The notes under the pieces were generated by a model that was not told where the DNA came from, searched no databases, and saw only the letters and a program-made list of their open reading frames with translations. Of a stretch of 33,836 bases of DNA, positions 9,225-18,234 are shown piece after piece. Both the position numbers and the translations under genes were made by a program. How positions within the stretch are numbered: position 1 is the first letter of the stretch; each line of letters starts with the position of its first letter. Source of the stretch: Candidatus Heimdallarchaeota archaeon (GTDB taxonomy: Archaea; Asgardarchaeota; Heimdallarchaeia; Hodarchaeales; Hodarchaeaceae); assembly GCA_020351745.1 (NCBI GenBank), contig CP070665.1:1321274-1355109 (forward strand). Direction: 5' to 3'.

Positions 9225-10913
9225 TTGAGAATAATAGTTATTAGATCATCAAAAGTGCTTCTCACTCTGGCTGGTATTGGTATACTGATCATGGCCATTG
9301 CTCTTCTTTTTTTCACTGGAGTAGCATCATCAGTTGATATTACTGTAGATCCTCCAACTTGGAATCGCCTGGTTTATGGATTTGATTATCGGATATTAAC
9401 TGCATTCGGATTTTTCTTGTTACTATTCCTCTCGCCTGTTCTTGCCTCTTTGGATGTCAATGCAAAGAAGAGTGTTAAAAAAATATATGTACACTTAGTC
9501 TTAATAGTTGGACTGGGCGTTCTAATGCTGATTTATTCAGCTTTGGTCTCTGTAGATCGTCTTACTCCATTCGATTTATTACATACATGGTTTGACTATT
9601 TTATTGTTGGAGCATTGTTGATTATTGTTGGTTTGTCACCCATATTGTTTTCTGTCCAAAATCGTGAACGAGTGTGGAATTTTAAGCTACTATTTATATT
9701 ATTCATTTTAGTTGGACTTCTACTGCATGTCTTAAGTCTGGTTCTTTATAGTCAAACAGTTGAAATACCAGAAATTGGATGGGAAATTCTCTTCTTGTTT
9801 GGAGTTATAATACTATTCATCGGAGTGTTTCCTCTTTTATTGACTGCTAGTACACGCTTCCGTAATATCCTTCGCCGCTTGGGAATTATTTGGATATTGG
9901 GTGCTTTAATTGGAATTTTAATAATCATTGGATCCATTTTGATTTATGCCGACATTGTCCAACTGCTTGTTCCAAAGGAAGATTGGTTTGTAATCTTAGC
10001 ATATGGTAGTCTTCTCACTTTGTTATTTATTTTACCATTAGCAAGTGTAGGGTATGAAATTATTCATAAATTGCGATTTATTTGGTTGGTTACATTATTC
10101 CTCGGAATAATATTTGTTGTCATTTCCGCGATTTTAGTTTTACCAGAATCACCTGAAATTAAGGCAGCAGTCGGAACTCTCCTTGGAAATTCACTCCTCG
10201 GAGCAACGTGGGATATATTTTATATGTATGGAATCATAATTATAATTTTTTCCCTCTCATTCATATGTTCGATTTTGTATTTTGAAACAGAAGAGATAAT
10301 TGGCCCAGAAGGCCTATTGGAAGTCGTAGATAGACTACCTGATGTTGAAACCACACCAAGTGAGATGATAGCATACCTAGAGATCCTAAGCAAATCACAT
10401 GAAAACTTAGTAAATCAGTTTAAAGAAGCAGTCAGAGCAGATAAGTTTCGACCAAGGGTATATGAATCAATTGTTAAGATATACCAAAATCGGAGTCGAA
10501 CCATAAAATCGAGAATAGAAAGTTTTCAGAAAGCTGGGCCACTTGTTTCTGCCGCGGAAGATGTCGAGGCAATCTTCGATGTAGCATTAGGTGAACCTTC
10601 TGAAGTTACTCCACCAGGAAAACCAGTAATTTCACCTACCCCCTCTACAGCCGAAGTATCACCTGAACCCCCGCCCATACCCCCTAAAGTTCCACCAAGT
10701 GCTCCACTCATGCCACCCCCCTCAGTCACTCCACCTGTTCCACCCCCTAGTCCATTAACAACTGCCCCTCCTGCTCCTGGAGCTGCACCCGCTCAACCCA
10801 CTGAATCGCCACTTGATTTAATAGCTGATGCGAGGTCAACAAGTATTGCAGAGTTGAGAGGGGAAATGTTAAAGGAGTTACGAAGACTTCGAGAAATCTT
10901 CAAAGAAGAATAG
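9225..10913 (+). CDS. Multi-pass membrane protein with proline-rich C-terminus, paralogue 2
   Basis: 562 residues. Two consecutive TTG codons (9222, 9225) could start it; comparison with copy 1 (TTG AGA AAA ATA GTT) favours 9225. It has the same architecture as copy 1: about 10 membrane segments as five two-helix units, a helical soluble part (TTPSEMIAYLEILSKSH to ESFQKAG), a longer Pro-rich linker (about 475-530) and the tail SPLDLIADARSTSIAELRGE through LREIFKEE. Identity is high in the first helix (LLTLAGIGIL), in HTWFDYF, in TTPSEM and in the tail, and low in the periplasmic-side loops and linker. Function unknown. rpiA follows after about 20 bp and may be cotranscribed. Confidence 0.85.
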   Translation: MRIIVIRSSKVLLTLAGIGILIMAIALLFFTGVASSVDITVDPPTWNRLVYGFDYRILTAFGFFLLLFLSPVLASLDVNAKKSVKKIYVHLVLIVGLGVLMLIYSALVSVDRLTPFDLLHTWFDYFIVGALLIIVGLSPILFSVQNRERVWNFKLLFILFILVGLLLHVLSLVLYSQTVEIPEIGWEILFLFGVIILFIGVFPLLLTASTRFRNILRRLGIIWILGALIGILIIIGSILIYADIVQLLVPKEDWFVILAYGSLLTLLFILPLASVGYEIIHKLRFIWLVTLFLGIIFVVISAILVLPESPEIKAAVGTLLGNSLLGATWDIFYMYGIIIIIFSLSFICSILYFETEEIIGPEGLLEVVDRLPDVETTPSEMIAYLEILSKSHENLVNQFKEAVRADKFRPRVYESIVKIYQNRSRTIKSRIESFQKAGPLVSAAEDVEAIFDVALGEPSEVTPPGKPVISPTPSTAEVSPEPPPIPPKVPPSAPLMPPPSVTPPVPPPSPLTTAPPAPGAAPAQPTESPLDLIADARSTSIAELRGEMLKELRRLREIFKEE

Positions 10914-10920
10914 GCCCCTT

Positions 10921-10935
10921 GAGGGATCATTAATA
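10921..10935 (+). promoter_or_regulatory. Ribosome-binding site before an AUA start
   Basis: GAGGGA at 10921-10926 is followed after 6 nt by ATA (10933-10935). The frame has TAA at 10870-10872 upstream. No ATG, GTG or TTG occurs in frame from there to TTG 11098, which lies beyond the conserved RpiA glycine motif. Confidence 0.55.
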
Positions 10936-11643
10936 TCGAAAAATGGATTAAAAGGATCTAAAGAGATCTCAAAACAAGCAGCTGCAAGTTCAGCTCTAAA
11001 TTGTATTTCTTCTGACCAATATGTAGGAGTAGGTAGTGGGACAACTATTCATTGGTTAATTTCACTTCTACCTGAAAGTGAAATCTCAAATCTTTATTTG
11101 GTACCTTCTTCTTTGGATTCTCTAGTTAGATTACAAAATAACATTAAACAAAACTATAAAATTATTGATTTACCTCCTCATGGTTTAGATATCACTATTG
11201 ATGGAGCAGATAAAGTCAATCCCGAGAGACAATCTGTAAAAGGTGGAGGAGGGGCATTAACACGTGAGAAAATCATAAGGGAAGCTTCAAAAAAGTTTAT
11301 TTTAGTAGTTAGTTCTGAAAAAGTTGTTCCAAAGCTTCCAATGTTTCCAATTGCAGTTGAAATCCTTCCTTTCGGATGGAGGCATACCATAAAACGGTTA
11401 GAATTGTTTGGAAAAAGAGCTATTCTACGAATGGCTAAAAACAAGCTTGGTCCAGTTATTTCTGATAATAATGGTTACATTGTTGATCTCGATCTAGGTG
11501 AGCGATTTCTAGAACCTAATGAAGTTCAATTATTAGAAGAACAACTGAATACTGTTCCAGGAGTTATTGAAAATGGGCTGTTCGGTCATGCTGCTGATGA
11601 AGTGATTGTTGGACACAATTCAGGTCGGGTTACAAGCTATTAA
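10933..11643 (+). CDS. rpiA: Ribose-5-phosphate isomerase A, near-cognate start
   Basis: 236 residues from the proposed ATA, close to the usual 225-235. VGVGSGTTIHWLI (normally GLGTGST) binds substrate phosphate, DITIDGADKV carries the DGAD motif, and VKGGGGALTREKI contains KGGGG and the catalytic acid (Glu in TREK). VEILPFGW and the C-terminal NTVPGVIENGLF are also diagnostic. It interconverts ribose 5-phosphate and ribulose 5-phosphate for nucleotide synthesis. Starting at TTG 11098 would delete the first 55 residues including GSGTT, so the upstream start is required. It follows membrane paralogue 2 and is convergent with the PIN-ATPase, with 17 bp between stops. Confidence 0.9.
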   Translation: MSKNGLKGSKEISKQAAASSALNCISSDQYVGVGSGTTIHWLISLLPESEISNLYLVPSSLDSLVRLQNNIKQNYKIIDLPPHGLDITIDGADKVNPERQSVKGGGGALTREKIIREASKKFILVVSSEKVVPKLPMFPIAVEILPFGWRHTIKRLELFGKRAILRMAKNKLGPVISDNNGYIVDLDLGERFLEPNEVQLLEEQLNTVPGVIENGLFGHAADEVIVGHNSGRVTSY

Positions 11644-14660: not shown

Positions 14661-15668
14661 ATGGGTCATAGGAAAAAACACGCGCCACACCGAGGATCTC
14701 TTGGATATCGAAGGAAAAGAGCAAGAAGACATACAGCTCGATTGAGAACGTGGCCAGAGTCAAGTGATTCAGCTGAACCTAGATTATTAGGACATGCAGG
14801 ATATAAAGCTGGAATGACACATCTAGCAATGGTAAATACTGATAGAAAATCCCCTTTTTTTAAACAAGAGCAGTTTGTGCCTGTTACCATTATTGAAACA
14901 CCTCCAATAGTCATTTTTGGTATACGAATATACATAACTGATCAAGTCACCAAAAAACCTCGGGTTATGACCCAAATATGGGGAGAAAACATCGAAAAAG
15001 ATCTAAGTCTTCGGATTAAGATTCCAAAAGAAATACAAAATAAAGAACAACAAATCAATGATGTACGAAAAGTCCTAGAAAATGTAAACGAAATCCGTAT
15101 ATTAGCTCATACTTCACCCAGAGAAGCCGGTTTTCCCCAAAAAGCTCCTGATATTTTGGAAATTAAAGTAGGGGGTTCAATTAATGATGCTTTCAATTAT
15201 GCTTTAAAAATTTTAGATCAAAAAATCTCTATAGATGACGTCTATAAACCTAATGATTTTATAGATGTGATCGCTACCACAAAAGGGAAAGGGTTTGCTG
15301 GGCCTGTTAAACGACATGGAATTAAAATTCTACCTCGTAAAACTCGAAAAGGTCGAAGAGTAGTAGGATGTATTGGACCCTGGCATCCTGCGCGAGTTAT
15401 GTGGACCGTTCCCCGAGCTGGACAGCTAGGTTATTTTGCACGAACAGAATATAACAAGCAAATTCTAAAAATAGGTGAGGATGGCGAGGAAGTAACTCCC
15501 GTAAGTGGATTTAAACGATATGGAAAAGTTGGAAAACATTGTGTTCTTCGCGGAAGTTCTCCTGGATCATCAAAGCGTCTAATTCGACTGAGAGACCCAG
15601 TAAGACCAAAACCCACAGAAATTGAAGATCTCCAAATTACCTATATCAGTACCGTGGCGAAGAATTGA
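14661..15668 (+). CDS. rpl3: Ribosomal protein uL3
   Basis: 335 residues, normal for archaeal uL3. It starts MGHRKKHAPHRGSLGYRRKR. KAGMTHLAMV and TKGKGFAGPVKRHGIK are conserved core segments, the latter leading to the loop that reaches the peptidyl-transferase centre. HPARVMWTVPRAGQLGYFAR and the C-terminal LRGSSPGSSKRLIRLRDP complete it. GGAG lies 9 nt upstream of the ATG. It opens the uL3-uL4-uL23-uL2 operon. Confidence 0.97.
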   Translation: MGHRKKHAPHRGSLGYRRKRARRHTARLRTWPESSDSAEPRLLGHAGYKAGMTHLAMVNTDRKSPFFKQEQFVPVTIIETPPIVIFGIRIYITDQVTKKPRVMTQIWGENIEKDLSLRIKIPKEIQNKEQQINDVRKVLENVNEIRILAHTSPREAGFPQKAPDILEIKVGGSINDAFNYALKILDQKISIDDVYKPNDFIDVIATTKGKGFAGPVKRHGIKILPRKTRKGRRVVGCIGPWHPARVMWTVPRAGQLGYFARTEYNKQILKIGEDGEEVTPVSGFKRYGKVGKHCVLRGSSPGSSKRLIRLRDPVRPKPTEIEDLQITYISTVAKN

Positions 15669-15687: not shown

Positions 15688-16494
15688 TTGAGTTCCTTCA
15701 TAGTTCCTGTATATGATTTAAAAGGAAAAGAAATCGATAAGATCGATGTTGGTTCAATATTCACAACTCCTTTTCGTCCTAATATGATCAAGCGTTCCGT
15801 TTTAGCTAGTCGTAGAAATCGACAGATACCTTATGGTGTCGATCCTCGTGCTGGGAAAAAGACATCCGCAGAAAGCTGGGGTACTGGTCGTGGAGCAGCA
15901 AGAATCCCAAGAGTAAAAGGATCTCATACACATTCAGCTAGTCGTGGAGCATTGATTCCATTCGCTGTAGGGGGTCGCCGTACACATCCGCCTAGCGGAT
16001 TTCAAAATTTTAAAGAGAAGATAAATAAGAAAGAAAAGATTTTAGCAAAAAAATCTGCGATTGCTGCAACAGCTAATCCAGTTTTAGTTGAATCACGTGG
16101 TCACATCATAGAGGAGATCAAGTCTTTACCTTTGATAATAAGTGATGAGCTGGAGTCATTAATTAAAACCAACGAAGTACAAGTTGTTTTCCAAAATTTA
16201 GGTTTATCATATGATTTGGCTAAAGCTAAAAGACGTAATTCTCAGATTCGGCCAGGTAAAGGAAAAAGACGTGGAAGGAAATATAAGAAGGGGAAATCAG
16301 TACTGATTGTTATTGCTCATGATTATGGAGTTGTAGCTGCAGCGAGAAATCTACCCGGTGTTGATGTCGTTGTTGTTGACCAATTAAATATAGAACATCT
16401 TGCACCTGGAACTCATGCAGGACGCTTAACATTATGGACAAAATCTGCGATTTCCAATTTAAACGAACTCCTAATTGAAGAAGTAATGAATTAA
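15688..16494 (+). CDS. rpl4: Ribosomal protein uL4
   Basis: 268 residues from TTG 15688. VPVYDLKGKEIDKI is the family N-terminus, so longer versions from TTG 15622 inside uL3 are unlikely, although no strong ribosome site decides it (GGCGAG upstream). QIPYGVDPRAGKKTSAESWG, then GRGAARIPRV, is the tunnel-lining loop. HAGRLTLWTKSAI is near the C-terminus. uL4 is an early assembly protein and contacts the exit tunnel. It starts 19 bp after the uL3 stop. Confidence 0.93.
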   Translation: MSSFIVPVYDLKGKEIDKIDVGSIFTTPFRPNMIKRSVLASRRNRQIPYGVDPRAGKKTSAESWGTGRGAARIPRVKGSHTHSASRGALIPFAVGGRRTHPPSGFQNFKEKINKKEKILAKKSAIAATANPVLVESRGHIIEEIKSLPLIISDELESLIKTNEVQVVFQNLGLSYDLAKAKRRNSQIRPGKGKRRGRKYKKGKSVLIVIAHDYGVVAAARNLPGVDVVVVDQLNIEHLAPGTHAGRLTLWTKSAISNLNELLIEEVMN

Positions 16495-16520
16495 TCATTC
16501 AAAATGACTCTGGAGAATTG

Positions 16521-16536
16521 AGGTGAAACCAAGCTG
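16521..16536 (+). promoter_or_regulatory. Ribosome-binding site before a CUG start
   Basis: AGGTGA (16521-16526), 7-nt spacer, then CTG (16534-16536). An in-frame TGA at 16519-16521 leaves only GGT GAA ACC AAG before CTG, so no ATG, GTG or TTG can start the conserved N-terminus. The same AGGTGA element precedes the uL2 ATG. Confidence 0.7.
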
Positions 16537-16809
16537 AAATTTAGACAACCTCAGGATATTATTAAATATCCATTAATAACAGAGGCGGCCTTCAACAAAA
16601 TGGATAATATTTATGAAAATGCTTTGGTTTTCATTGTCGATCGCCGAGCTACAAAACACGAAATTAAGCAGGCCTTCGAGACACTTTATAAGGTAAAGAT
16701 AGTTAAGGTCAATACCCTTATAACTCCCCAAGGTGAGAAAAAAGCATTCATAAAGCTTTCACAAGATTATAGTGCCTTGGATCTAGCGACTGAAGTTGGA
16801 ATCATTTAG
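16534..16809 (+). CDS. rpl23: Ribosomal protein uL23, CUG start
   Basis: 91 residues. QDIIKYPLITEAAFNKMDN is the conserved uL23 N-terminus; NALVFIVDRRATKHEIKQAF and VNTLITPQGEKKAFIKL complete the fold. uL23 lies at the exit tunnel and docks SRP and Sec61. The first ATG (16600) lies after the conserved IKYPLITE segment and would cut into the fold. The CTG at 16534 is preceded by AGGTGA at ideal spacing, and TGA closes the frame 15 nt upstream. The stop is 13 bp before the uL2 start. Confidence 0.93.
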   Translation: MKFRQPQDIIKYPLITEAAFNKMDNIYENALVFIVDRRATKHEIKQAFETLYKVKIVKVNTLITPQGEKKAFIKLSQDYSALDLATEVGII

Positions 16810-16822
16810 ATAGGTGAAAACG

Positions 16823-17566
16823 ATGGGAAAACGGATTTTAGTTCAACGTCGTGGCCGAGGATCACCAACCTTTCGATCTTTATCACATAGAAAACGAGGT
16901 AAAGCTCGATATTTACCTCTAACAAGAAAAGAACTTAACGATAAAATCGAATACACGATCATTGACTTCACTCATGAACGGGGCCGTGGTGTCCCGTTAA
17001 TGCTTGTAAAGTATGAGGATGGAAGTGAATGTTTTCTTCCTGCCCCCGAAGGAGTGCATATAGGTCAAAGACGAGAGCAAGGTGTAAATGCAGCTTTAGA
17101 AGTTGGAAATATTTTGCCTATTAACAAAATTCCAGAAGGGATATGGATCTGCAATGTAGAAATGCGTCCTGGTGATGGAGGAGCATTGTGTCGGTCTTCA
17201 GGAACCCATGGGTTAGTAAGAAGCCAATCAAAAGAAGGCTCTTCCGTCCAATTGCCCTCTCGACGAGTTAAAACGATTAACAATAATGCTCGTGCAATGA
17301 TCGGTGTTATTTCTGCAGGTGGAAGACCAGATCGTCCCTTTATCAAAGCTGGTCTTAAAAGAGCTTTCATGCGAGCAAAAGGACATAAATCATTTCCAGT
17401 AGTTCGTGGTGTGGCGATGAACATAGCATCACATCCATTTGGAGGAGGTGCCCACCAAGGTCCTGGTCAACCCACTACTGTTTCCAGGAATGCTCCACCA
17501 GGGAGGAAAGTGGGTTTGATCGCAGCTCGTCGAACTGGATTAAGACGTGGACGTATACGATATTAA
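16823..17566 (+). CDS. rpl2: Ribosomal protein uL2
   Basis: 247 residues from ATG 16823 (MGKRILVQRRGRGSPTFRS). AGGTGA five nt upstream supports this over an earlier GTG that overlaps that site. GTHGLVRSQSKEGSSVQLPS and VVRGVAMNIASHPFGGGAHQ carry the conserved region near the peptidyl-transferase centre, including the His of the NP/SHPFGGG loop. It is the last gene of this operon. In most archaea uS19, uL22 and uS3 would follow, but here the next gene, atpD, is on the opposite strand. Confidence 0.97.
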   Translation: MGKRILVQRRGRGSPTFRSLSHRKRGKARYLPLTRKELNDKIEYTIIDFTHERGRGVPLMLVKYEDGSECFLPAPEGVHIGQRREQGVNAALEVGNILPINKIPEGIWICNVEMRPGDGGALCRSSGTHGLVRSQSKEGSSVQLPSRRVKTINNNARAMIGVISAGGRPDRPFIKAGLKRAFMRAKGHKSFPVVRGVAMNIASHPFGGGAHQGPGQPTTVSRNAPPGRKVGLIAARRTGLRRGRIRY

Positions 17567-17592: not shown

Positions 17593-18234
17593 TTATTGTT
17601 TCGAGAGTTTCTTTTTCACTTTCTTTAATCGTACAAAGGCCTCTCGCTCTCGCTCTGCCAAGGTTAATTTAATCCATCTTACTGTTGCTTGGATACGAGG
17701 GATTATGATATAATTCAATGCGTTAACACGACGTTTTGTTTCGATTATTTCTCCTGCAAGTCTAGTTAATGTTGATTGAGTCTCTGCTAGATTTACAATT
17801 GCTTGAAGAGCCTCCTCAAAGATTTCCAGAGCCGAATCAAACTTTGCAGTAGTTTCATGCATGGAGTACTGGATTGAATCACCAAGATCTTCTTTTAGAA
17901 TCTTTAAAATTGGGACAGAAATTCCCATTAATCTTCTACTCTTACTCTCAATTTGAAACTTACGTGGATAACTCAATGCTACGTTTTGGATAGAAAATTC
18001 TCCCATCTGAAGTTTGAGCTGAACCAATTGATTTTGAGAGTCTCGTATTGTTCCCTGAACCTTTTCTCGTTTTTGTTTGTATAGCATGACCGTGGAGAAC
18101 AATTCCCCTGTTAAAGCTTCAAGCTTTTCACTCAATAGTTCATAACCCTTGTTAGCTAGTTCTAATCTCTGCTTTAACTCTAGTAATTGCATACGAGTTG
18201 GTGTTATTCCAGGAATTATGTTTTCTGTACTCAT
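17593..18234 (-). CDS. atpD: A-type (V/A) ATP synthase subunit D
   Basis: 213 residues, typical of the family. GITPTRMQLLELKQRLELAN at the N-terminus and the C-terminal RRVNALNYIIIPRIQATVRW (subunit D consensus RRVNALE-x-x-x-IP) are diagnostic. The protein is nearly all helical, with two long terminal coiled-coil helices that form the central rotor shaft between the A3B3 head and the membrane ring. The ATG has GAGG about 8 nt upstream. No other ATP synthase subunit is in the window, so atpD is detached from the usual operon. It converges with uL2. Confidence 0.95.
   Translation of the reverse strand: MSTENIIPGITPTRMQLLELKQRLELANKGYELLSEKLEALTGELFSTVMLYKQKREKVQGTIRDSQNQLVQLKLQMGEFSIQNVALSYPRKFQIESKSRRLMGISVPILKILKEDLGDSIQYSMHETTAKFDSALEIFEEALQAIVNLAETQSTLTRLAGEIIETKRRVNALNYIIIPRIQATVRWIKLTLAEREREAFVRLKKVKKKLSKQ

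Follow-up and report, generated by a model that had tools for sequence, protein, structure and literature searches.

The stretch of DNA analyzed here (the window; 33,836 nucleotides) spans positions 1321274-1355109 of contig C1 of genome G000, whose assembly is a single 1.39-Mb contig that is 71.5% complete. It carries the ribosomal protein genes uL3, uL4, uL23 and uL2 in this order. The same-genus genomes used for comparison (G000-G011) are filed in public records as Candidatus Heimdallarchaeota or Hodarchaeota archaeon, and the relatives of G000 among them are metagenome assemblies. The features of the locus, together with start sites found elsewhere, are collected in Table 1.

Table 1. Features of the uL23 locus, neighboring genes and selected near-cognate starts (positions in the window unless a genome coordinate is indicated).
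Feature	Position	Strand	Remarks
rpiA (ribose-5-phosphate isomerase A)	10933..11643	+	probable AUA start behind GAGG, in normal SD register
uL3	14661..15668	+	starts with ATG; orthologue column has TTG (G003) and GTG (G004)
uL4	15688..16494	+	most likely start TTG 15688, aligned with ATG in five same-genus genomes
Five-codon ORF (ATG ACT CTG GAG AAT TGA) in the uL23 frame	16504..16521	+	ATG unconserved in relatives
In-frame TGA upstream of uL23	16519..16521	+	bars a start farther upstream unless UGA is read through
Shine-Dalgarno (SD) sequence GAGGTGA	16520..16526	+	7 nt before CTG; complements 16S 3' end GGATCACCTCCT
uL23 coding sequence	16534..16809	+	91 codons from CTG; Pfam PF00276 match, orthologue alignment
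uL23 start codon CTG	16534..16536	+	orthologue column; frame without ATG/GTG/TTG after TGA
uL2	16823..17566	+	ATG start; AGGTGA at 16812-16817
Membrane protein ACG start, G000	1201556 (genome coordinate)	-	
Membrane protein ACG start, G005	1273081 (genome coordinate)	+	

A preliminary description, made from the letters of the window, had proposed that uL23 begins with CUG, and its readings of the sequence were borne out. Only four sense codons (GGT GAA ACC AAG) separate the in-frame TGA from the CTG at 16534; the AGGTGA that it placed 7 nt ahead of this codon (16521-16526) is part of the longer match GAGGTGA; the conserved segment IIKYPLITE is encoded upstream of ATG 16600; and uL2 starts at ATG with the same AGGTGA element, there with a spacer of 5 nt. 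ATG 16600 is the first canonical in-frame start of uL23 and lies within the conserved domain. Translated from the CTG, the protein matches the PF00276 Ribosomal_L23 profile from residue 8 onward with 59 bits against a cut-off of 30.8, and its best-scoring relatives of solved structure are eukaryotic uL23 proteins. The distance between GAGGTGA and the CTG falls within the range observed for ATG codons behind SDs here (mostly 4-7 nt).

uL23 is present in 11 of the 12 genomes of the family, and the start comparison covers these 11. In an oriented alignment, the start column reads NTG in every one of them: CTG in three different species (G000, G005 and G003), TTG in G009 and G006, and ATG in G004, G011, G008, G001, G010 and G002. 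The start of G006 is ambiguous, as an ATG sits two codons upstream of its TTG. As in G000, the G003 frame holds no ATG, GTG or TTG between the upstream stop and the conserved protein start, while G005 has a longer open frame with no in-frame stop there, yet again without an upstream ATG, GTG or TTG. In G000 and G005, only 6-7% of the codons for Leu are CTG, and of 162 elongator CTG codons of G000 that align with Leu in G005, 18 are CTG there as well. With so rare a codon and such fast turnover among Leu codons, CTG in three divergent species would be unexpected for an elongator codon, and a column held at NTG, with ATG in sister species, likewise argues against an elongator Leu codon. From the alignment, the uL23 CTG is thus almost certainly a start codon, neither a sequencing error nor an elongator codon, and the proposal of a CUG start gains strong support from the SD spacing together with the exchange of CTG, TTG and ATG at one column in all 11 genomes. 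In the tree, in which several nodes are weakly supported, either CUG or UUG may have been the earlier codon at uL23.

The preliminary description had also called for a look at the 3' terminus of 16S rRNA. The G000 assembly yielded no 16S gene; in the same-genus genome G001, which was used instead, the 3' end GGATCACCTCCT provides an anti-SD match to GAGGTGA over seven bases. The GAGGTGA is identical (7/7) in G000, G005, G009 and G003; among these four genomes, 26 of 33 bases after the start are kept, 2 of 7 in the spacer and 3 of 11 before the SD. The codons of the spacer vary accordingly (ACC AAG, ACC AAG, ACT GAA and ATT GAA). The uL23 genes with ATG carry SD-like sequences that are weaker and irregular. 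Within the genus, SD matches are somewhat longer for genes starting with GTG or TTG than for those starting with ATG (p=0.011 over 86 families, the rows not being independent), the canonical starts of these families having been set without use of the SD. A survey of prokaryotes that included archaea reported the same trend toward stronger SDs in GUG and UUG genes (Belinky, Rogozin and Koonin 2017, PMC5622118). Sequence comparison establishes, as far as it can, the position of the uL23 start, its conservation, its interchange with UUG and AUG and the strong SD in the CUG genomes.

We consider it very likely that uL23 initiates at CUG 16534, placed by the strong SD and read by initiator Met-tRNA. 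According to this model, the duplex between GAGGTGA and the 16S 3' end would position the 30S subunit so that CUG occupies the P site, where initiator Met-tRNA (CAU anticodon) would start despite the first-position mismatch, the weakness of the CUG codon presumably being offset by the strength of the SD. We infer that uL23 is translated from this CUG in vivo; its first residue would presumably be Met, giving the N-terminus (M)KFRQPQDIIKYPLITE. The same relaxed initiation would then also give rise to the handful of near-cognate starts found elsewhere in the genus. ARAGORN, run on genome stretches, returned few tRNAs overall and no initiator tRNA.

It appears very unlikely that translation begins instead at one of the other codons around the SD (AAG or ACC of the spacer, or the AAA after the CTG) or internally at ATG 16600. 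AAG 16531 does lie at an acceptable spacing, 4 nt from the SD, but the spacer codons are not conserved, and a start at ATG 16600, which has no SD at normal spacing, would cost the protein the initial 17 positions of the PF00276 profile. There is only a very slim chance that Leu-tRNA reads the CUG, so that uL23 would begin with Leu; the switching of the column among CTG, TTG and ATG fits a single initiator tRNA, although initiation with Leu-tRNA at CUG has been described in mammalian cells. We give almost no weight to a sequencing or assembly error behind which the true codon would be ATG or TTG: the G000 assembly is incomplete and its relatives derive from metagenomes, but CTG stands at the same place in the assemblies of three species, and G000 and G005 share about 75% DNA identity over alignable stretches. 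Hardly any probability falls, finally, to a start at ATG 16504 with the TGA read through or recoded, since this ATG, though in the uL23 frame and only five codons before the TGA, is absent from G005, G009 and G003 in the orthologue alignment, since G005, whose frame is open there, likewise offers no canonical codon for such a start, and since the sequence ahead of the SD is unconserved; the five-codon ORF is probably a product of chance.

CUG 16534, read by initiator Met-tRNA, thus remains our reading of the uL23 start, and start-codon usage was compared more broadly in 131 well-scored families from up to six same-genus genomes, with 69 families from one genus of the same class as a control. 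The 349 starts of the genus comprised 272 ATG, 52 TTG, 13 GTG and 12 other codons, as against 172 ATG, 8 TTG, 2 GTG and no near-cognate codon among the 182 control starts, corresponding to a non-AUG share of 22% (mostly UUG) versus 5%. Any non-ATG start occurred in 46 of 131 families compared with 5 of 69 in the control (p=7e-6, for gene sets that were not matched), and the nine families shared by both genera had non-ATG starts in 11 of 35 versus 0 of 26 cases. Collectively, these counts point to a likely genus-wide relaxation of start choice that shows mainly as UUG. Near-cognate starts were found in 7 of 131 families, three of the seven being ambiguous on inspection, versus 0 of 69 in the control; this excess is not significant (p=0.098).

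We also counted codons behind SD hexamers relative to shuffled SDs in 1.47 Mb from four genomes (400 kb each from G000, G005 and G009, and one contig of 266 kb from G006), considering ORFs of at least 100 codons, a threshold that leaves uL23 uncounted. Canonical starts exceeded the shuffled expectation (ATG 49 vs 10.2, TTG 15 vs 4.0, GTG 6 vs 2.4), and near-cognate counts were ACG 4 vs 0.5, ATT 5 vs 2.6, CTG 1 vs 0.5, ATA 1 vs 2.0 and ATC 0 vs 1.2. A general excess of CTG, ATA or ATC after SDs was thus absent from this sequence, with ACG alone among the near-cognate codons clearly above the shuffled level. It had been suggested that the uL23 start, together with AUC and AUA cases, reflects a genome-wide habit that should appear as an excess of ATC, ATA and CTG at the expected spacing; the scan comes close to showing none. 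What stands of this suggestion is a minority pattern: well-supported starts at ACG, AUU, AUA and CUG do occur, in roughly 2-3% of genes.

Among the individual cases, a roughly 550-residue membrane protein has an ACG start directly after an in-frame stop and behind GGAGGT in both G000 and G005. An OB-fold-like protein, named by eye and with no Pfam match, starts with ATA in G000, ATT in G005 and ATG in G006, with an alternative start possible at an ATG nine codons further in. The proteasome alpha gene of G006 has an ATT start directly after a stop, and a DUF389 protein of G009 a CTG start. Within the window, the rpiA frame (10873-11643) contains no ATG, GTG or TTG before the conserved N-terminal part, so that AUA 10933 is probably its start, with AUC 10966 as the alternative. 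An AUA start is plausible for rpiA, whereas an AUA reading of uL4 at ATA 15701 was rejected, this gene being better explained by UUG 15688, which aligns with the ATG of relatives and is most likely the start of that gene. In G000 this TTG has no clear SD, and the mechanical ORF call begins at TTG 15622. Three further candidates were dropped on inspection: an ACG start of eL15 in G005, which is directly preceded by TTG, an AUC/AUG pair in gene 292, and an AUU start of serA in G006, which has a GTG three codons upstream.

The preliminary description had tentatively linked the unusual starts to the properties of the initiation factors. No aIF1 gene was found in the G000 assembly; in all 10 same-genus genomes in which aIF1 is present, it carries the motif QGNF with M, L or I, all hydrophobic, as the next residue, while the other members of the class that were sampled have QG(D/N)H followed by R, K or E. 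The combination of QGNF with a hydrophobic residue was not found in 23 further Asgard families sampled. In solved structures, the motif reads QGDH in aIF1 (4mo0 and 5zcy), QGDQ in eIF1 (6zvj) and QGNW in an eIF1 of trypanosomatid type (7ase). QGNF aligns with QGDQR of eIF1. In yeast, this site governs the stringency of start selection, and Sui- alleles at eIF1 D83 and Q84 within the motif raise UUG initiation. Species with ATG at uL23 carry the same QGNF motif, and the QGNW of 7ase indicates that the aIF1 change may not suffice alone. The gene for aIF1A was found in the genus, and aIF2 gamma displayed no striking change around the first GTPase motif. The proposed tie to initiation factors thus yields one candidate, the aIF1 motif. 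The QGNF change is a possible cause of the relaxed starts, by a correlation in which one clade counts as one data point. A tentative idea, which we regard as rather unlikely, is that altered aIF1 loosened start selection throughout the genus, so that even genes for ribosomal and proteasome proteins could normally begin with CUG, ACG, AUU or AUA when one of these codons follows a strong SD.

In E. coli, infC starts with AUU, an autoregulatory device that acts through IF3. uL23 resembles it as an essential translation gene with a rare start codon; the known autoregulatory IF3 loop is that of infC. Relaxed start-codon choice is likewise seen in eukaryotic CUG initiation and in yeast Sui- mutants of eIF1 and other factors; unlike these cases, the uL23 start would be placed by an SD and not by scanning, and the effect of aIF1 is putative. 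The closest parallel is offered by SD-led GUG and UUG starts, in that uL23 combines a weak start codon with a strong SD and has UUG at the same site in a sister species, but CUG is far rarer as a start codon (PMC5622118). In that survey, 2 of 61,358 ancestral AUG starts had switched to CUG, and AUG was under the strongest selection in genes that are both conserved and highly expressed (PMC5622118). CUG starts are known but very rare, and uL23 provides an instance that has been conserved, within one genus of Asgard archaea, at an essential gene for a ribosomal protein; a literature search that covered few subscription papers found no report of a CUG or other non-canonical start in an archaeal ribosomal gene. 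Because CUG is rare and most selected against in genes of this kind, its retention across species in uL23 offers a natural test of what determines start-codon stringency. In practical terms, gene callers limited to ATG, GTG and TTG trim 22 residues from uL23 and misplace or lose starts such as that of rpiA.

Two minor observations concern the surroundings of the start. In a predicted fold of the leader, the uL23 SD (UGAGGU) pairs over 6 bp with ACCUCA at 16547-16552, in codons 5-7, with the CUG in the loop; a regulatory hairpin over the SD was discarded as a candidate, the fold being not stronger than that of shuffled sequences (z -0.71). Downstream of uL2, the translation of a minus-strand gene at 17593-18234 resembles V/A-type ATP synthase subunit D, which it likely encodes, so that the ribosomal cluster would end after uL2 here.
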